Below, in pieces: positions 6,992-15,760 of a DNA stretch of 46,047 nucleotides (within the stretch, counting starts at the first letter, position 1; each line of letters begins with the position of its first letter). The translations under genes were made by a program, and so were the position numbers. This DNA is from Oscillospiraceae bacterium (lineage in GTDB: Bacteria; Bacillota; Clostridia; Oscillospirales; Ruminococcaceae): positions 1 through 46,047 of the forward strand of contig JAFXZM010000028.1 of assembly GCA_017541275.1 (NCBI GenBank), given 5' to 3'. Under the pieces are notes generated by a model that was given only the letters and a program-made list of their open reading frames with translations, searched no databases and was not told the DNA's origin.

Positions 6992-7044
6992 TACGATAAA
7001 GATGTCTCCGCACCCCCTTCTGCGGAGAAACAGGAGGAATGACC

Positions 7045-8496
7045 ATGAAACACAAACTCAGAATCCCGGCACTGCTTGCAGCAGTTTCACTGCTGAGCGG
7101 CTGCGGCAATTCTGACAGCAGCAGCAGCTCATCTGCGGATTCGGCCGCCGACACAACGGGTACGACTGAGGCGGCGCAGACCACGACGACGGAGACAACC
7201 TCCGCCGCAGAAAAGCCCGATGACACGGATGTTCCCGCAATCGACGGCTATGAGCTGCTCTGGCACGACGAATTCAACGGCGATAAGGTCGATGACACAA
7301 ACTGGAGCTTTGAGAAGCGCCCTTCCGGCTGGACGAATCAGGAGCTTCAGGAGTACACAATCGCCGGCGACACGATCTTTGTACGCGACGGCTGTCTCGT
7401 GCTGAAGGCGATCAAATCTGAACGCGACGGCAAGGATTATTACGAATCGGGCAAGGTGAATTCCCAGCACAAGCGGCAGTTCACCTACGGCAAGGTCGTT
7501 GCACGCGCCAAGGTTCCTGAGGGTCAGGGCCTCTGGCCGGCAATCTGGATGATGCCGGAGGATGAGCAGCATTACGGACAGTGGCCGAAGTGCGGCGAAA
7601 TCGACATCATGGAGGTGCTCGGCAGTGCGACCGAGACCGCCTACGGTACGATTCATTACGGCGCACCGCATGCCGAGCAGCAGGGAACTGTCGTGCTGGA
7701 CAGCGGCACCTTCGCAAGCGATTTCCATGAGTATTCCGTGGAATGGGAGCCGGGCGAGATCCGCTGGTACATTGATGACAAGCTGTATCTGACCGTCAAT
7801 GACTGGTTCACCGCCGAGGAAGGTCAGGATGAAAAGCCTTATCCTGCACCGTTCGATCAGCCGTTCTTTGTGCAGATGAATCTGGCCGTCGGCGGAACTT
7901 GGCCGGGCAATCCCGATGACACCACGGACTTTGACAAGGCAGAGTTCGAGATTGACTATGTGCGTGTCTACCAGAAGCCGGAGTACGATACGAATGTCAC
8001 GAAGCCGGAGGCACAGTACCGTGAGGCACTGGAGGACGGCAACTTCATCTTCAACGGCGACTTCGCTGAGGCCGAGGATCTGACCGACGACGTCAACTGG
8101 AAGTTCCTGCTCTTTGAGGGCGGTGACGGCGCTGCGGAGATCAAGGACAACACCATGATTATCACGACAAAGAACGAGGGTACGGTCGATTATTCCGTGC
8201 AGCTCGTGCAGCCGGAACTCCCGATGATTAAGGGCAAGAAATACCGCGTCACGTTTGATGCATGGGCGGATGAAGAGCGCGATATCGTTGTGTGTGTCTC
8301 CGCGCCGACTGCCGGCTGGATCCGCTATTTGCAGGATACGACACTGACCGTTCCGAAGGAGAAAAAGACCTTCACCTATGATTTCGAGATGAAGGATAAG
8401 GATGACCCGAACGGCCGTTTGGAATTCAATCTCGGACACAGAGGCTCCACTGCGACGGTCTATATCACGAATGTCCGCGTTGAGGAAGTCTCATAA
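7045..8496 (+). CDS. GH16 family endo-beta-glucanase lipoprotein with C-terminal carbohydrate-binding module
   Basis: A 483-residue secreted lipoprotein: lipobox LLSGC with Cys20, Ser-run and Thr-rich linker, then a glycoside hydrolase family 16 catalytic domain from about residue 68 (YELLWHDEFNG) to 310. The catalytic signature EIDIME (Glu185, Asp187, Glu190) is intact and is preceded by GLWPAIWMMP. GH16 members cleave beta-1,3 or beta-1,3-1,4 glucans such as laminarin or lichenan; which one cannot be told here. Residues from about 330 (FIFNGDFAE) resemble a CBM4/9-type beta-sandwich. ATG 7045 is chosen over ATG 7039 for its spacing from AGGAGG (7032-7037). It has its own promoter and terminator. 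Confidence 0.92.
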   Translation: MKHKLRIPALLAAVSLLSGCGNSDSSSSSSADSAADTTGTTEAAQTTTTETTSAAEKPDDTDVPAIDGYELLWHDEFNGDKVDDTNWSFEKRPSGWTNQELQEYTIAGDTIFVRDGCLVLKAIKSERDGKDYYESGKVNSQHKRQFTYGKVVARAKVPEGQGLWPAIWMMPEDEQHYGQWPKCGEIDIMEVLGSATETAYGTIHYGAPHAEQQGTVVLDSGTFASDFHEYSVEWEPGEIRWYIDDKLYLTVNDWFTAEEGQDEKPYPAPFDQPFFVQMNLAVGGTWPGNPDDTTDFDKAEFEIDYVRVYQKPEYDTNVTKPEAQYREALEDGNFIFNGDFAEAEDLTDDVNWKFLLFEGGDGAAEIKDNTMIITTKNEGTVDYSVQLVQPELPMIKGKKYRVTFDAWADEERDIVVCVSAPTAGWIRYLQDTTLTVPKEKKTFTYDFEMKDKDDPNGRLEFNLGHRGSTATVYITNVRVEEVS

Positions 8497-8582: not shown

Positions 8583-11465
8583 TTACGTAAACGGTGTAAA
8601 GGAGAACAGTGCATACCGGTCGGCTCCGATGTTTGCAAGACCGGTGCAGATGCCGTTTTCTACATGCACCGCATAGAGGGTCGCGATATCCGTGCTGCTG
8701 CGGAAAACGGTCTCTCTGCGGCTGAGTGTGCGGTCATAAGCATAGATCGTGCCGGCGTTGTCCTGTATCAGGATCATGCCTTCGCAGTCGGAGAAATCCA
8801 AATCCGTAATACTGGGCATCGGGAAATCGCAGATGATCTGCTCCTCTTTGGTGCTGAGATCATAGCTGATCCATTTGTCATCCGTGCTGCGGTAGTAGAA
8901 GTGTCCGCCCATGACGGTCCACTGATCGTAATCGAGCTTCGGCAAATCATAATATGTACGGGCGCCGGTCTGCGCATCAATGCGCATGAGCTGCATGGTC
9001 TGCTCCGTGTAATGGGTCGTCCAGAGCGCGGTATCGTCGTCATAGGCCGGCGCACAGTATCCCCAGTTGACGCAGTCCTCCGAGAGCTTGCTCAACGGCA
9101 TCGGCTGATCGGCAAGGACAGTCACGCTGCCGTCGGAAACGCGGTAGAGCAGATCAATCTGCTGGTAGGGGTTGACGCTGTTGTCCGGATTGAGGAACTC
9201 TCCGGTTAGGGAGATATAGAGAATGCTGCCGCCGCAGAGCGGTCTCACCGTATCATAGATGACATAGTGGAAGCGTTTGCCGCTGTTGTCCTGACTGACG
9301 GTGAGCAGTTCGGTTTCCGAGCCGTCCGGATTGATGCGGTTCAGCGTAAAGTCGCCGTTCTGCCGGAAGCCTGAGCCGAAGTCCAGCAGCTTTCCGCGGA
9401 GAATGTGAACCGGGCAGTCTTCCGAATTATGTTTGCAGCCCTCTTGGGTGCAGAGCGGTGTGAATTCCAGCTCGCCGATGGCAGCCTTTGCGCGACTTTC
9501 CCCGGCGATATCGTAGATATACTCGTCGTCCCACAGATAGCCTGCGTTGACCATGATCGAGTCTGCATTGAAATAGCGGAGCTTTCCGTGTCCGCCGAGC
9601 TCGTTCAGACCGAGTCCTCCGGTGATAACGGTGCCGGCAGCAGCGGCTGTTGTCTGGGTGATTTCTGTGTGTACGGCATCGGCTGTGCCGGATGTCCCTG
9701 TGCCGGTGGACTGATTTCTCGCTTGAACCGGCAGCATTTCATAGTGATACTGTCCGGCATCTTCATCGAATTGCAGGAGATACGTGCCGAGGGAGGATGT
9801 CAGAACCAGCTCTCTGCCCTGCGCATCGAGCCAGTATTCGCAGCGGACGACGCCGGAGCCCCATGCGCAGGCCCATGTTGTCAGATTGTTGAGCTTTGTT
9901 TCAAAATCAAGGATGTCTTCGCTTTCGTCAGCGAGATCGCGGATCATCTGCGCATTCAGGCCGTCTAACGCATCCGGGTCGAATTCCTCGTTCCAGCAGT
10001 TGCCCATCAGCGGCAGTGAGGCGACGATCGCGTCGCTGTCAAGTGCGCTGTGCGCGGCATCGCGGATCGGGAGCATTCTGCAGCACTGCACCTCACCGAG
10101 CCCGTCAGCAACATGCTCCGGCGGGATATAGTAGACCGAGAGGTCGCCCTCTGATTCGGTGACATAGCCCTCAGACGGTCTTTCTTCTTCTCTGACGGTC
10201 TGATCGGCGGCGGTCAAGAGCTGATAGCTGCCGTCCTCCGTGTTGATGCGGATGATGCGGATTGTGTCCTCCGTGCCGTATATCTGCGATATTGCGAAGA
10301 TGACACCGTCCGCCTTGATGAATTCATAGTTCTGTGTCATACGGTAGGTGTAGCTGTCGCCGGGGAACACCTTTTCGGCCGGTGCACGGAAGATCTCTCT
10401 GCCGTCCGTACCGTCAAACGTCATTTCGGTGTAGACCTCAAAGCCGTCTTCAAAACTGATCTGATACAGTGCGTCCCTGCCGATGAGCCAGCGCTTATCG
10501 AAGGTGTCGCTGCGGAACAGCTCCTTGGTTTCGCCGCTCTGCATATCGTACTGAAAGCAGGCGATGCCGGAGGCGCTCGGATCGCTGATGAGATAGCAGA
10601 GCTTTGAGCCGGAAACAGTCCATGCATCAATATACTCGCTGTCGTTGATATCCGGTGCTGTTTCGAGAATATACTCATACTGCGACGGTGCGCTGTAGGG
10701 GTGCTTCAGGATCGCTTCCGTGACATTCTCCTGTGTGCGTGCATACCAGCCGGAGCCGTCTGCATCCGCACGGACATTCGGGGACGATTCCGCGGTGTGG
10801 CAGCTTGCGATGACGCGCTTTTGTGCGGCATCGTAGATCACGGTGCGGTAGGGGCCGAGGCTGTCCAGTGCACTGCTGTAGGAGATTGCGTAATAATCGC
10901 CGGAGAGATGCCGCAGCGACCCGAAGGAGAACAGCGCATCGTCCTTTGCGAGACTGTAGGCGGGGCAGTCCTCCGTGAGCGTAAAGAAATCGGATGTTTT
11001 GCCGCTGCTGTCGATGACAGAGAGCGTCAGTCCGTCTGCTTTGTACATCCGTTCGCCGTCAGAGAGAATATGACAGTTTTCGGGCAGGAACATGATTTTG
11101 TTGTCTGCGCCGGCATAGGCGGTCGGCTCCTTCTGATTGAACTGGAAATAGGTGCGCGAGCGGTCGCAGAGAATGACCGCGCTGCCGTAGCCGATATACG
11201 GCTTCAGCTCGCCGTAGCCGCCGAGAAAATTCTGTTCGGAATCCTGAAGCAGCTCGGAATTCGCGATGCGCAGATTCCGGTCTCTTGCACCGTAGGCGAT
11301 CACGCCGACTGCAACGGCAATCGCGGCGGCAATCGCACCGATGCCGAGCGTCATGCGCCGGATCATGCGGCTCCGTCTGCGTTCTGCGCCGTCCCAGCGC
11401 AATGCTTCATCTATATATTCCCTGCGGATATGCCGCATGGTGTCGAGATAATCTTTTTCCTTCAT
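8583..11465 (-). CDS. Large membrane-anchored sensor, probable anti-sigma partner of the adjacent ECF sigma factor
   Basis: A 960-residue protein with a short charged cytoplasmic N-terminus (about residues 1-38, MKEKDYLDTMRHIRREYIDE), one transmembrane helix (about 39-59) and roughly 900 extracytoplasmic residues. The outer part looks like two beta-propeller-type regions rich in Tyr/Trp/Asp strands, joined by a Thr/Ala/Gly linker near residues 590-615. The second half carries LCTQEGCKHNSEDCP, a C-x4-C-x-H-x4-C arrangement that could bind a metal. Its ATG overlaps the sigma-factor stop by 4 bp, the usual arrangement for a sigma/anti-sigma pair. The ligand is unknown. It does not match RsgI in its N-terminus as far as I can judge. 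Confidence 0.7.
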   Translation of the reverse strand: MKEKDYLDTMRHIRREYIDEALRWDGAERRRSRMIRRMTLGIGAIAAAIAVAVGVIAYGARDRNLRIANSELLQDSEQNFLGGYGELKPYIGYGSAVILCDRSRTYFQFNQKEPTAYAGADNKIMFLPENCHILSDGERMYKADGLTLSVIDSSGKTSDFFTLTEDCPAYSLAKDDALFSFGSLRHLSGDYYAISYSSALDSLGPYRTVIYDAAQKRVIASCHTAESSPNVRADADGSGWYARTQENVTEAILKHPYSAPSQYEYILETAPDINDSEYIDAWTVSGSKLCYLISDPSASGIACFQYDMQSGETKELFRSDTFDKRWLIGRDALYQISFEDGFEVYTEMTFDGTDGREIFRAPAEKVFPGDSYTYRMTQNYEFIKADGVIFAISQIYGTEDTIRIIRINTEDGSYQLLTAADQTVREEERPSEGYVTESEGDLSVYYIPPEHVADGLGEVQCCRMLPIRDAAHSALDSDAIVASLPLMGNCWNEEFDPDALDGLNAQMIRDLADESEDILDFETKLNNLTTWACAWGSGVVRCEYWLDAQGRELVLTSSLGTYLLQFDEDAGQYHYEMLPVQARNQSTGTGTSGTADAVHTEITQTTAAAAGTVITGGLGLNELGGHGKLRYFNADSIMVNAGYLWDDEYIYDIAGESRAKAAIGELEFTPLCTQEGCKHNSEDCPVHILRGKLLDFGSGFRQNGDFTLNRINPDGSETELLTVSQDNSGKRFHYVIYDTVRPLCGGSILYISLTGEFLNPDNSVNPYQQIDLLYRVSDGSVTVLADQPMPLSKLSEDCVNWGYCAPAYDDDTALWTTHYTEQTMQLMRIDAQTGARTYYDLPKLDYDQWTVMGGHFYYRSTDDKWISYDLSTKEEQIICDFPMPSITDLDFSDCEGMILIQDNAGTIYAYDRTLSRRETVFRSSTDIATLYAVHVENGICTGLANIGADRYALFSFTPFT

Positions 11466-12028
11466 AGCAATCCCTCCTCCTCAAGCTGAGCTCTGAGGTC
11501 GTTCCGTGTACGCAGCAGCGTCATTTTGACCTTGCTCTGTCCGACGCAGCATTTGTCTGCAATCTCCCTGATGCTGAGATTGCTCCAGTAGCGCAGGACA
11601 AACATTACGCGCGTTTCGGGAGCAAGGCCGCTCAGAAACCGGTTGATCGCATCCGCAAGCGCCATTTTGTCGATCACATGCTCCGGGTTATCCGGTGCGG
11701 CAATCACATTTTCAATCTCAGAGAGCGCGGCTGCAATTTCGCCGCCGCCGCGTTTTTCGGCTCGGTTTGCGGCTCTGCGGTTGCAGGCGAGATTGCGCAC
11801 GGCAACCGACAGATAAGCGATCAGGCTTTTGGGTTTAGCCGGCGGTATGGACTCCCACATTTTCAGCAGTGCATCATTCAGGCATTCCTCGGCGTCCTCC
11901 GGATTCCCGAGAATACCGTTCGCGATGCTGCGGCAAAGTCCGCCGTATTTTTGCTGTGTCTGTGCAAGTGCCTGCTGATTGCGTTCAAAATAGAGTGAAA
12001 CGATTGCTTCATCAGTGATGCTGTGCAT
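11462..12028 (-). CDS. RNA polymerase sigma factor, ECF (sigma-70 family)
   Basis: A 188-residue ECF-type sigma factor. Region 2 is seen in GILGNPEDAEECLNDALLKM and the following SLIAYLSVAVRNLACN. Region 4 is seen in PETRVMFVLRYWSNLSIREI and ADKCCVGQSKVKMTLLRTRN, an intact helix-turn-helix that reads the -35 element. The open frame extends to 12211, but the ATG at 12028 has a good AAGGAG site about 8 bases before it. The stop overlaps the start of the large membrane protein, so the two are probably made together and the sigma factor held inactive until the outside domain senses a signal. Targets are unknown; the secreted glycan enzymes nearby are plausible candidates. Confidence 0.93.
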   Translation of the reverse strand: MHSITDEAIVSLYFERNQQALAQTQQKYGGLCRSIANGILGNPEDAEECLNDALLKMWESIPPAKPKSLIAYLSVAVRNLACNRRAANRAEKRGGGEIAAALSEIENVIAAPDNPEHVIDKMALADAINRFLSGLAPETRVMFVLRYWSNLSIREIADKCCVGQSKVKMTLLRTRNDLRAQLEEEGLL

Positions 12029-12076
12029 ACGGTCATCTCCTTTCAGCGGATTTGATTGAGCGGCCCCTCTGCTATT

Positions 12077-12104
12077 TACGACAGCATCCGGAGGGTGTGC
12101 GTCA
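12077..12104 (-). promoter_or_regulatory. Possible ECF-type autoregulatory promoter of the sigma operon
   Basis: On the minus strand TGACGC (12104-12099), an 18-bp GC-rich spacer and CGTA (12080-12077) lie 49 bp before the sigma gene. The layout resembles ECF promoters (a conserved -35 and a CGTA-type -10), but the consensus for this sigma is unknown. Confidence 0.3.
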
Positions 12105-12295
12105 CAAAAAAGAGAAATCTTTTTTTGAAAATAAGGATTTCGCGGCTTTTCTGATAAAAAAGGCAGCAGATAGGAGTGTCTGCTGAGATAATCTAAGAAT
12201 CCTAATATCAATCAAAATGGCGCGGCACATTAGGGGGCAAGGGGTCAGGAAAGCGGGGGTTCGGGGGAATCAGCGTACGCAGTGAGCGTTTCCCC

Positions 12296-12480: not shown

Positions 12481-12687
12481 TAATGTTTTAGGTCCGCCTT
12501 GCCGTCGCCCGAAGAATAAAACCCGCACGAAGCAGGTGGGTATCCGCCTATGCCGCGCATGCTCCCTAGCAACCGCCGAAGCGGGAGGCCTGCAATTCTG
12601 GACACAGAGCGCAATTCCCTATTCACAAATGTTGGATTATATCAAATCAGGCTTGCTCGCACAAGGCAGAATCATTTTTCCTTGCTG
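12481..12687 (-). ncRNA. ssrS: Probable 6S RNA
   Basis: A region without an ORF flanked by a sigma-A promoter and a terminator on the minus strand, giving a core of about 200 nt, the usual 6S size. Its ends pair: CTGCCTTG (12669-12662) with CAAGGCGG (12501-12494). Internally the block GCGGTTGCTAGGGAGCATGC resembles what I recall of the central part of E. coli 6S (GCGGUUGGUGAGCAUGC). 6S RNA mimics an open promoter and binds sigma-A RNA polymerase in stationary phase. The class call rests on size, rod-like closure, context and this recalled similarity; a covariance-model search was not possible. Otherwise it is an unassigned small RNA with good boundaries. Confidence 0.6.
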
Positions 12688-12764: not shown

Positions 12765-13127
12765 TTACTCAGTCTGCTGAGCGTCCGCTTCGTCATCCTC
12801 GTCGTCGTAATCCTCGTCGAGGCGGTCAATAAAGATCTGTGCAATGCGCTCATATTCCTCATCGCTCTCGATCGGCACAAGAATATCCTCGCCGTCATCG
12901 CCGGAAGTCACGGAGAGAACAACAAGCTCGCATTCGCCCTCCAGCAGCTCCTCCGGATCCTCAACATGCGGGATCAGCGCAAAATAGACCTTGCCGTCCT
13001 CTTCAAGAATATCAATCAGCTCGAACAGCTTTTCATTGCCTTCCTCATCGACAAGCGTATAGAGTTCAGGTGTTTCGTTCAGTTCCTCCGGGGTGACCGG
13101 CGTAATCGGTTCGTTCTGGTCAGGCAT
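12765..13127 (-). CDS. DUF1292 family protein
   Basis: A 120-residue, very acidic cytoplasmic protein. The core LYTLVDEEGNEKLFELIDIL, DGKVYFALIPHVED and the tail of Asp/Glu fit the DUF1292 (YrzB-like) family found across Firmicutes, whose function is unknown. AGGAG lies just before the ATG. It has its own consensus promoter, divergent from the large RNA gene. The usual genomic partners of this family (Holliday junction resolvase YqgF, IreB-like protein) are not beside it here. Confidence 0.85.
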   Translation of the reverse strand: MPDQNEPITPVTPEELNETPELYTLVDEEGNEKLFELIDILEEDGKVYFALIPHVEDPEELLEGECELVVLSVTSGDDGEDILVPIESDEEYERIAQIFIDRLDEDYDDEDDEADAQQTE

Positions 13128-13188: not shown

Positions 13189-13217
13189 ATTGTAACCGAT
13201 TTTCCGGAAAATGTCAA
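13189..13217 (-). promoter_or_regulatory. Promoter of the DUF1292 gene
   Basis: Minus strand TTGACA (13217-13212), 17-bp spacer, TACAAT (13194-13189). The spacer holds the dyad TTTTCCGGAAAA. It lies back to back with the plus-strand promoter at 13273. Confidence 0.8.
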
Positions 13218-13272
13218 CCCCAAAATATATGAAAAAAATCCCCAAAAAAATAAAAAAAGTTGCAGAAAACTA

Positions 13273-13301
13273 TTGACAAACAACGAAAGATGTGCTATAA
13301 T
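13273..13301 (+). promoter_or_regulatory. Perfect consensus sigma-A promoter of the large RNA
   Basis: TTGACA (13273-13278), exactly 17 bp, TATAAT (13296-13301). This matches the sigma-A consensus at all twelve positions, so strong constitutive transcription is expected. No gene with a ribosome-binding site follows for 800 bp. Confidence 0.9.
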
Positions 13302-13307
13302 AAGACC

Positions 13308-14104
13308 ATAAGAACAGCACAGACCATTCCGAAGCGAACAGACAAGGGCATACAGATTCTTTTGAGGAGAATGTCCGTACTTCTTACACAGCCTGCCGTT
13401 CGCTTTTATCGTTCCGAAGCTGCTGGTCTTTACTTGGAATCTTGCGGCGTTTCCGGCCGGTCATATGCTTGATCGGTTTCGTAACGGCATATGCGTGTAT
13501 GCCGGGATCCGGCCGTAAATTCAGATTCAGAAAGGTGCGTGAGTCCAATGGAAATGGCGGAAGTCATCCCGGTCATTGACGAAGGCTCGTGCAGTCGAAT
13601 CGCAGCGTTTTCTGTGTGACATTTTTGCACGCTTTGCGCCGGCAATGTGCTTTTGAGAGCACCTTGGGTGAGCCGGCAGGCACGTGCAGTTCCGATATGG
13701 AAACCCGGCACAGAAAACCGCCGCTCGACGGAGTGGTGCGTCTGCGTGCCGAGGCAGAGCCGTAATTCAGCAAGAGGATATGTTCAGGACTGTAGCGGCT
13801 ACAGTCGCCGGCGGAGATTGCTTGACTGCATCGGTTCAGATGTACGGCAATCGGCGGGTCGCCGAAGAGAATGGTACAGTCGTCATTGACAAGACGGGAA
13901 GGGATTTTTACCTCTGTGCGGTCATATTCAAAGCACGATTGGATATGGGTTCGCTGGGGATTTGAGAGGCGCATGACCGACATGCGGCAGAATCTCCTTA
14001 CAAATGCGGCGGTCAGCTGCATTGATATATAATCCTTTCTATACCATTAAAAATTGAATAAAAAATAAGGGGAGGCTTTGGAATGAAAGCCTCCTTTATT
14101 TTTG
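13308..14104 (+). ncRNA. Large structured noncoding RNA candidate (about 790 nt), class not recognised
   Basis: Between a perfect promoter and a strong terminator no ORF on either strand looks protein-like or has a ribosome-binding site. The sequence is full of complementary segments: AGACCA 13321-13326/TGGTCT 13424-13429; AAGCGAAC 13332-13339/GTTCGCTT 13398-13405; GGGCAT 13346-13351/ATGTCC 13371-13376; CGGCCGG 13454-13460/CCGGCCG 13509-13515; CGGCATA 13485-13491/TATGCCG 13498-13504; GTTTTCTGTG 13607-13616/CACAGAAAAC 13709-13718, extended by GTCGA 13594-13598/TCGAC 13725-13729; GCCGGC 13638-13643/13672-13677; GACTGTAG 13788-13795/CTACAGTC 13799-13806; GATTGC 13816-13821/GCAATC 13847-13852; CGGTCAT 13919-13925/ATGACCG 13973-13979; AATGC 14003-14007/GCATT 14019-14023. 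The helices nest like a domain-built ornate RNA. RNase P, tmRNA, SRP and group II intron signatures are absent. Size is in the range of the ROOL/GOLLD/OLE classes, but I cannot assign it to any. Confidence 0.62.
14071..14104 (+). terminator. Terminator of the large RNA (probably bidirectional)
   Basis: A 9-bp perfect stem GGAGGCTTT (14071-14079)/AAAGCCTCC (14086-14094) with TTTATTTTT after it and an A-rich AAAAAATAAGG before it. It can therefore stop both the plus-strand RNA and the minus-strand operon ending at 14172. Confidence 0.88.
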
Positions 14105-14171
14105 TATGTATGGCATAGAGTATCGCTCCCGTTTTTAAGCGGGGGCGATTCGGTTTGCAGATAAAAAGCAG

Positions 14172-15068
14172 TCAGTGCTTTGCGGTGCGGATCGTTTCCT
14201 TTTTGTAAACGTGAATATGCATCAGGAGGAACAGCAGCAGCAGCACGGCGGCGCAAATGCCGACGATTGCCATTTGCGTTGCCGCCTCGGTCAAGGAATA
14301 GAGGAAGCCGGTGACGGCGGCAAACACATGATCGGTTTTGATCGCAAAGCGGTCAAACCAGCAGGTGCGGATGAGCCACCGTGCAGGGATCAGCAGCAGA
14401 AGCGAGGCGATCAGCAGGCTGATGCCGGTCCAGTAGAATCCGTGCCGGCCCTCCGCATGATTGGTCATGAACAGGAACAGAATCAGCAGCAGTGTGACAA
14501 GTCCGGCACCGATCGTCAGAAAGCCCGACCACTTCAGCACATGCTGCGCCTTGCTCATTACGCCTGCATCATCGAGTGTCCGGAAGCGGTACACATCGCA
14601 TGCATTGAGAATCGCAGCCTTAGCGCCTGTAAGCGATTCCTTGACGGCGATCTCATAGCTTGCGTTCTTTTCGATTTTATGCTGATCGGCATAGTCCTCG
14701 AAGAAGGCGCGCATATCCTGCTCCAGAACCGAAAAATCCGGTTCGGTGCCGACCTTTGCGGTGCGGCCGTTCAGGTAGGAAAAGCCGTTTTTAACGGAAT
14801 CGCGGATGATTGTTTCGCAGGCCTCGGCGGTAATCGAATTTTCGTAGACCGAGACCGGAATGCCGGTTGTATTTTCCTGATCGGTAAAATACTGCGTCAG
14901 GCTCTCATGCACAGCCTGTGCGAGCTGCTTATCCTGCACGATTTGCAGGCAGGTGTCGGCTTCCATGCCCTTGAAGTGCATCAGCGCGATCAGCCCGGTC
15001 ACGAGAAACGAAAAGATCAGCAGGATCGAGAGAAATACACTGATGAGATAAATATGCGGTTTTTTCAT
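14172..15068 (-). CDS. Uncharacterised multi-pass membrane protein of the sortase cassette
   Basis: A 298-residue protein with an N-terminal hydrophobic segment (YLISVFLSILLIFSFLVTGL), an extracytoplasmic stretch of about 150 residues, and three further membrane helices (WSGFLTIGAGLVTLLLILFL, WTGISLLIASLLLLIPARWL, AIVGICAAVLLLLFLLMHIH). No catalytic motif is seen. It lies 14 bp after the sortase gene in the same direction, so it is probably the third gene of the surface-protein/sortase operon and might assist assembly or anchoring. That role is inference from position only. Confidence 0.7.
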   Translation of the reverse strand: MKKPHIYLISVFLSILLIFSFLVTGLIALMHFKGMEADTCLQIVQDKQLAQAVHESLTQYFTDQENTTGIPVSVYENSITAEACETIIRDSVKNGFSYLNGRTAKVGTEPDFSVLEQDMRAFFEDYADQHKIEKNASYEIAVKESLTGAKAAILNACDVYRFRTLDDAGVMSKAQHVLKWSGFLTIGAGLVTLLLILFLFMTNHAEGRHGFYWTGISLLIASLLLLIPARWLIRTCWFDRFAIKTDHVFAAVTGFLYSLTEAATQMAIVGICAAVLLLLFLLMHIHVYKKETIRTAKH

Positions 15069-15082
15069 CTGTCATCCTCCTG

Positions 15083-15760
15083 TCAGTCTGCGGCCTTCTG
15101 CTTGAATTTCCGGTCAACCGGCTCACAGCGCACGCCGATCCGGACATCCGAGCTGCCGAGCACCTGCGGCTTGCAGGTGTAAAGCGTCAGATATTCCTCG
15201 TCGGTGACGGCAACATACCGCTTGTCGGTTTTATCGAAGGTGATCTGCTCGGTGACACGGTAGGTAAAAATGCCGTATTTGGTATAGAGCGTGATTTCAT
15301 CGCCGGGTCTGAGCTTTTCAAGATCGGAGAAATACGTATTGACATGTGCGTCGATGACGGTATTGCCGCCCTCGCCGATGATCGCCGAGCCGGTAGACTG
15401 GCATGCTCCGCGGGAGAGCAGCTCGGAGGTCACGCCGTAATACACGCCGACCGTCAGATTGATTGTCTTTGCCTCCAGCATTGCATACTGTTCGCCGAAG
15501 GTCGGGTAGATGATCTTCCCCTCGTCATAGGTTTTGTCAGGGGTGTTCATGTCGATCTCATCCTCAATGATGCGCAGTCCGGAGGAGGCCGAGCTGGTCT
15601 TGAGGTTGTCCATAAAAGCGAGACTGAGATATTTCTGGAGCTGATGCGCAGGGGCGAGTACATAGCAGAGCGCGAGCACGCCGCCTGTCAGGATCAGCAG
15701 CAGCAGCGGGGTCAGCAGGTAGATGAGCAGGCCGCCGCGTTTTTTTGCTTTTTCACTCAT
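15083..15760 (-). CDS. Sortase (transpeptidase)
   Basis: A 225-residue membrane-anchored sortase: N-terminal membrane helix (LLIYLLTPLLLLILTGGVLA), then a sortase beta-barrel. Catalytic residues are visible: His139 in VIDAHVNT, Cys196 in the TLYTC motif, and Arg207 or Arg211 in SSDVRIGVRC. Sortases cut a C-terminal sorting signal and join the protein to the cell wall or to another protein. It overlaps the end of the upstream surface-protein gene by 8 bp, marking that protein as the likely dedicated substrate. The class cannot be fixed by eye; the Asp-Ala before His (usually a Gly-His) is slightly unusual. Confidence 0.9.
   Translation of the reverse strand: MSEKAKKRGGLLIYLLTPLLLLILTGGVLALCYVLAPAHQLQKYLSLAFMDNLKTSSASSGLRIIEDEIDMNTPDKTYDEGKIIYPTFGEQYAMLEAKTINLTVGVYYGVTSELLSRGACQSTGSAIIGEGGNTVIDAHVNTYFSDLEKLRPGDEITLYTKYGIFTYRVTEQITFDKTDKRYVAVTDEEYLTLYTCKPQVLGSSDVRIGVRCEPVDRKFKQKAAD

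Follow-up and report, generated by a model that had tools for sequence, protein, structure and literature searches.

The locus raises a simple question: what is the transcription unit of about 800 nt that runs divergently from a DUF1292 gene, and what might it do? The window considered here is the whole stretch of DNA that was analysed (46,047 nt), one 46-kb contig of a 2.04-Mb host genome that is assembled in 66 contigs and is 75.6% complete. The elements that frame the unit are the following:

12487 to 12675, minus strand: probable 6S RNA behind the DUF1292 gene (RF00013, 43.3 bits against a gathering score of 46.4, E 2.6e-7)
12765 to 13127, minus strand: DUF1292 gene, the divergent neighbour (PF06949, E 5.6e-16)
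13273 to 13301, plus strand: sigma-A promoter TTGACA-17-TATAAT with an extended -10 element (TG), 12 of 12 consensus matches and the same form in homologues
13308 to 14104, plus strand: the RNA, about 800 nt, its start predicted from the promoter and its end from the terminator
14063 to 14104, plus strand: intrinsic terminator (14068-14097 with the T-rich tail), helix 28, with 16 pairs of which 5 show two-sided changes

A first-pass annotation of the sequence had proposed a perfect consensus promoter, a strong terminator and, between the two, a unit of about 790 nt; all three are borne out, since promoter and terminator bracket about 800 nt. On the strength of its promoter, length and terminator, the predicted transcription unit is real. 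The next large open reading frame (ORF) on the 3' side, at 14172-15068, lies on the opposite strand and, because no gene follows in cis, the RNA is not a cis attenuator; the terminator at 14063-14104 and the orientation of this gene likewise rule out a cis-acting leader or an upstream ORF. ORFs of 80-149 amino acids overlap the RNA region on both strands; the homologues (23 extracted RNAs) span 632-837 nt by our own delimitation and show many indels. In the same neighbourhood are found an ECF-type sigma factor (11462-12211, minus strand), a sortase-domain protein (15083-15760, minus strand) and a family 16 glycoside hydrolase (7039-8496, plus strand).

The RNA was also said to match no known family, and the covariance models agree. 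No Rfam model reached its gathering score anywhere in the window, a permissive scan of 13200-14200 with E up to 5 returned no credible match, and 38 related loci, of which some overlap, yielded only 6S RNA and one tRNA, both outside the RNA. OLE, ROOL, GOLLD and HEARO gave no match, so that by model the RNA belongs neither to OLE, ROOL or GOLLD nor to another Rfam class. An RNA class this large whose structure is strongly conserved and which has no match in Rfam 15 is rare in itself. The placement among chromosomal genes rather than in a prophage holds as well: a phage collection yielded only 64 nt of the promoter region, in six records, a plasmid collection yielded nothing, and a 19-mer from the window had no match in viral contigs. 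A mobile origin is rejected on the phage and plasmid results. ROOL and GOLLD, like this RNA, are large and ornate, with 600-800 nt and more, and passages of PMC12286853 describe them as encoded in phages or prophages, often near tRNA islands; this RNA, in contrast, has neither an Rfam match nor a long phage or plasmid match, and no tRNA was found in the window. The locus is not described in the article texts searched, supplementary tables aside (among them PMC11109978, PMC8632094, PMC12286853 and PMC8708949).

The probable 6S RNA is not peculiar to the window. Among 20 related loci, eight matches to 6S above the gathering score lie beside DUF1292, at seven distinct places; 18 further loci add six matches, two being repeats. 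This makes 11 distinct related places with 6S RNA next to DUF1292; many of the remaining loci end before the 6S position. The order 6S RNA, DUF1292 and divergent long RNA is the predicted arrangement in the window's bacterial family. 6S RNA binds RNA polymerase. It differs from the long RNA in sequence, size and strand and is not its homologue; the likeness is a functional analogy only, that of an RNA occupying a central machine, encoded at the same locus. The closeness of the two genes hints at a possible common use in slow growth.

Within the window's genus the RNA is widespread. A BLASTN comparison across 30 genomes, the window's own included, gave homologues extending past the promoter in 23, and a covariance model of the RNA core, R1, added two more (G209, E 1.2e-15; G208, E 8.4e-7). 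R1 found no match at the DUF1292-adjacent place in G108, where a promoter, an SD-like motif (SD, Shine-Dalgarno) and a terminator nevertheless delimit an RNA-like unit; since this unit adjoins DUF1292 divergently, G108 was counted as a homologue by position. The RNA is thus present in 26 of 30 genus genomes (23 by BLASTN, two by R1 and one by position). No homologue was found in G201, G219 and G222, whose genomes are 75-82% complete. In G188, which is 96% complete, a predicted stand-alone transcript of about 400 nt (1032-1440 of locus L191) ends in a terminator; its promoter and 5' end are similar to those of the RNA, and it carries four SD-led ORFs of 2, 9, 1 and 4 codons. DUF1292 was not found in the stretch fetched around it. 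As for the 23 extracted RNAs, DUF1292 adjoins 19; the flanks fetched for the other four (L012, L020, L023 and L024) showed none.

The most solid result concerns the fold. A consensus structure of 169 pairs was obtained from an alignment of 21 homologues (L018 and L022 excluded; 20 of the rows are distinct). In this structure 89.6% of the cells are paired, against 35.6-43.1% when the structure is slid by one to three columns, and covariation scores 0.295, with 0.088 as the highest value for a slid version. Because one alignment served both to derive and to assess the structure, some of this advantage is inherent, and the two-sided changes are more telling: they occur in 91 of 169 pairs, against 33-42 in the slid structures and 48.5 in shuffles, none of which (0/500) reached as high a value. 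Moreover, the window's own RNA folds better as a single sequence than its shuffles (z = -2.56, 0/20 as good). The main helices, all on the plus strand, are these:

13308-13318 with 13422-13432: helix 2, 11 pairs, 5 two-sided
13443-13454 with 13505-13517: helix 4, 10 pairs, 6 two-sided
13573-13582 with 13880-13889: long-range helix 10, 10 pairs, 9 two-sided
13584-13593 with 13753-13761: long-range helix 11, 9 pairs, 4 two-sided
13607-13617 with 13708-13718: long-range helix 13 (GTTTTCTGTG), 11 pairs, 9 two-sided
13719-13726 with 13731-13738: helix 18, 8 pairs, 6 two-sided
13788-13794 with 13800-13806: helix 20 (the GACTGTAG hairpin), 7 pairs, 5 two-sided
13956-13962 with 13992-13998: helix 25, enclosing helix 26, 7 pairs, 5 two-sided
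13970-13975 with 13981-13986: helix 26, within helix 25, 6 pairs, 2 two-sided
14003-14008 with 14018-14023: helix 27, 6 pairs, 6 two-sided

Helices 10 (9/10 pairs two-sided), 13 (9/11), 27 (6/6), 18 (6/8) and 4 (6/10) are the best supported. Two pairings that had been read from the window's sequence alone recur in the consensus, namely 13607-13616 with 13709-13718, in helix 13, and the hairpin at 13788-13806, helix 20; a third, 13332-13339 with 13398-13405, occurs in the minimum-energy fold of the window's RNA and is absent from the homologue consensus. The search for compensatory changes among the genus homologues thus confirms a large structured RNA, and the locus almost certainly holds an RNA gene with conserved structure.

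Such a fold invites comparison with OLE RNA, which is likewise large, chromosomal, ornate and structured and belongs to Gram-positive bacteria. The RNA of the window could be a scaffold or ribozyme of this sort, in which the fold does the work and the small ORF described below is incidental or serves only for ribosome loading. The extensive covariation, the long-range helices and the size of the RNA in the window's genus all fit this explanation. It should be noted that OLE itself has a proposed link to the ribosome, through RpsU/bS21, in passages of PMC12286853 and in PMC12054373. Unlike OLE, the present RNA adjoins DUF1292 and 6S RNA, carries an SD-led small ORF and has no Rfam match.

The small ORF and the element that leads it are these:

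13529 to 13535, plus strand: Shine-Dalgarno-like AGAAAGG, seen in the sequence and conserved among homologues
13548 to 13619, plus strand: small ORF of 23 codons, MEMAEVIPVIDEGSCSRIAAFSV followed by UGA, with AUG and frame kept

The distance from GG to AUG is 12 nt, longer than ideal. The AUG is present in 23/23 homologues, and the stop (UGA or UAA) stands at the same column in 21/23 and farther on in L019 and L022. Across the 21 aligned rows there is only one indel inside the ORF, of 9 nt, and frame 0 is without stops in 21/21, against 14 rows for frame 1 and five for frame 2. Codon positions 1, 2 and 3 differ 25, 24 and 29 times, and the synonymous fraction among changed codons is 19/59 in the ORF frame, against 9/53 and 15/57 in the shifted frames; the coding signal is therefore weak, in a region where three long-range helices also have their 5' strands. 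We hold with moderate confidence that the small ORF is a maintained reading frame, and it is probably translated. The absence of a ribosome-binding site and of an ORF, asserted in the first-pass annotation, cannot stand in that form, as AGAAAGG and the AUG at 13548 open the kept 23-codon frame. The label "noncoding" is only partly apt for an RNA with the SD-like element, the AUG and the kept frame of about 20 codons. The same three kept elements count against a scaffold or ribozyme of the OLE type.

A further structural feature touches this start site. Strand 13584-13593 of helix 11 can alternatively pair with GUGAGUCC, located between the SD and the AUG; this second pairing (13537-13547 with 13584-13592) would compete with helix 11 and would enclose the point where the small ORF begins. 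As it shows no two-sided changes, a switch between the two pairings is inference only.

With a maintained frame of this kind, the RNA might also be regarded as a messenger for small peptides, the first of about 20 residues, with others of about 9-16 residues in other genera. The weak coding signal speaks against it, as does a covarying structure that goes far beyond that of a plain messenger.

The picture changes outside the window's genus. When R1 was run on 396 genomes of the family, only five genomes, every one from the window's genus, gave strong matches (E <1e-30); weak matches (E 0.004-0.065) came from 16 genomes of other genera, and eight of these 16 lie beside DUF1292. Since such adjacency is far above chance, we take these eight as true homologues. 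The transcripts at such loci repeat a GG-N-GUGAGUCC motif, and in many copies AUG, a single codon and a stop come immediately after it. Of 118 family genomes, 112 gave a DUF1292 gene. Forty stretches upstream of DUF1292 were fetched, and the count took in the 16 (15,940 nt) that show both the motif and an evident divergent promoter; L078 and L096, which also list such units, were left out of the counts. A minigene was defined as an SD-like word 5-15 nt 5' of AUG or GUG, followed by one to four sense codons, the start included, and a stop. By this definition the 16 transcripts hold 45 minigenes in sense and none in antisense (shuffles: mean 10.2, maximum 19, n=200). Thirty of the 45 have two sense codons (2.8 in shuffles, maximum 7, n=300), three are a bare AUG-stop, and 37 carry CCN directly 5' of the start (0.34 in shuffles, maximum 3, n=300). 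Loci were chosen and the definition was framed after the motif had been seen, so that these counts are a description with a control and not a blind test. Thus SD, start, one or two codons and stop recur in the transcripts of other genera, and here too "noncoding" is only partly apt, the corresponding transcripts bearing rows of minimal ORFs.

Most of these transcripts start with a longer SD-led ORF, of 14-23 codons at the 15 loci where it is AUG-led, and in some of them ORFs of 9-16 codons behind good SDs come later on. Both of these ORF kinds would suit a messenger for small peptides; 30 of 45 minigenes, on the other hand, would encode a mere dipeptide, and we consider such a messenger improbable. 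In the window's genus the same definition yields 11 minigenes in 23 RNAs, which are related sequences, against 5.2 in shuffles, and ten of the 11 are the final codons of the small ORF; the enrichment there is not clear, and one 23-codon ORF takes the place of rows. The lack of rows in the window's genus accords with an OLE-like scaffold or ribozyme, to which the wealth of SD-led minimal ORFs in the other genera is opposed. A cross-genus alignment of the 5' part, poor and limited to eight sequences, has 85.3% of its cells paired and ten two-sided pairs against three to six when slid, too small a margin to build on; in it only a hairpin around the small ORF and one other hairpin look shared, a further point against a function residing in the fold. 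An OLE-like role for the whole RNA is, in sum, rather unlikely.

An enrichment of plain pairing to the 16S end was looked for and rejected: sites number 222 against 184 in shuffles for the 16 transcripts and 279 against 249 for the genus, hardly above the shuffled level. The repeated motifs contain GGA, as would befit a sponge for CsrA resembling CsrB. CsrA, however, was present in only eight of 20 genomes tested, and as a shared function the sponge was discarded, CsrA not having been found in the window's own genome, in three congeners or in the array-bearing G093, G063 and G078; this argues against it unless incomplete genomes miss CsrA or another protein substitutes. The sponge is exceedingly improbable.

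What is printed on minigenes offers another starting point. According to passages of PMC8708949, ribosomes on two-codon minigenes behind strong SDs initiate anew without leaving and peptidyl-tRNA is released; such minigenes can be toxic. SD-led two-codon ORFs are common to the axe-txe and LEE1 leaders described there and the transcripts of other genera; in the leaders the minigenes are single or paired and act in cis on the following gene, whereas in the other genera they form rows, and the transcript that bears them runs into a terminator with no gene following it. For a stand-alone RNA with minigenes in rows no counterpart was met in the literature searched, supplementary tables aside. RNAIII is a dual-function RNA, a structured regulator with a small ORF of its own. 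The present RNA resembles it in joining structure and a small ORF and differs from it in having no Rfam sequence match and, in relatives, rows of minigenes.

The best overall explanation, to which we give a probability of roughly 40%, is a stand-alone RNA that engages ribosomes and serves, next to 6S RNA, as a decoy or sensor in translation. Ribosomes would start on the SD-AUG sites of the RNA. Translation of the small ORF in the window's genus would require three long-range helices to be opened, since the ORF contains their 5' strands; the RNA could thus be folded or ribosome-occupied, but not both at once. In the other genera an initiating ribosome would be caught at each minigene, where a very short peptidyl-tRNA would be made before the stop. 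From the minigene behaviour reported in passages of PMC8708949 we infer that the RNA may capture or sense initiating ribosomes, and acting in trans it would sense or soak up 30S subunits with initiator tRNA. The long RNA would then be the translational companion of the neighbouring 6S RNA. That ribosome engagement is the function of the RNA is a tentative proposal; that it acts as a decoy in trans, rather than being put to another use, is more doubtful. Several observations weigh against ribosome engagement: the lack of minigene rows in the window's genus, the near-shuffled level of 16S-end pairing, the weak coding signal and long SD spacing of the small ORF, and the array repeats whose SD-like motif has no start codon after it. 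A similar doubt attaches to the broadest form of the idea, a family-wide RNA with conserved SD-led start-stop units that would trap or count initiating ribosomes and initiator tRNA as a counterpart of 6S RNA. If the RNA does trap or count initiating ribosomes, it would represent a new way of controlling translation capacity and, if the whole proposal is true, one locus could damp transcription and translation together in slow growth.

Alternatively, loaded ribosomes could shield a lengthy untranslated transcript against nucleases and premature termination, the real work of the RNA being of another kind. The distribution of SD-AUG units along the transcripts would suit this role, and the authors of PMC8708949 suggest, in the passages concerned, that minigene ribosomes may protect mRNA. 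Two-codon minigenes, however, cover little RNA, and the window's genus has a single unit only; a purely protective role is unlikely.

The range of the minigene rows bears on how general a ribosome-engaging RNA of this kind might be. The exact minigene pattern GTGAGTCCRATGAAATAR was searched across 84,980 genomes and occurs at 44 loci, about 30 being expected by base counting; it has one match in viral contigs. At 18 of the 44 loci, all Clostridia by title and at least four of them (L119, L149, L153 and L155) repeating records already in the family sample, DUF1292 lies on the opposite strand at 0.5-2.2 kb, in divergent orientation. They include Candidatus Soleaferrea massiliensis AP7, Negativibacillus massiliensis Marseille-P3213 and Provencibacterium sp. 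The remaining 26 comprise 15 from other phyla, one Staphylococcus and ten Clostridia, in some of which the stretch ends near the match. A search of the order, taking one DUF1292 copy per genome, the best-scoring among the matches listed, supplied 29 new stretches upstream of DUF1292, 27 of them from other families and some short (464-1087 nt). Those from other families contain nine minigenes by the definition given above, and in none of the nine does CCN precede the start. As far as this limited sample goes, the rows of minigenes look confined to one family, which we take, from the named records, to be the Ruminococcaceae (GTDB).

The arrays themselves show some further regularities. A second kind of repeat is found in L097, L098, L101, L102 and L104, consisting of SD-led ORFs of about 10-16 codons, several of which end in LNI plus one residue (e.g., MKRFNAYHDLNIY and MITFKAATHFGLNII). 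In L097-L102, L104 and L115 there are copies of the SD-like motif in which CCGCC, CCACC or CCGACAGG replaces CCAAUG, without a start codon, and several arrays finish with such a start-less copy. Finally, several near-identical tandem repeats lie behind the array transcript of L093, at about 1600-1900.
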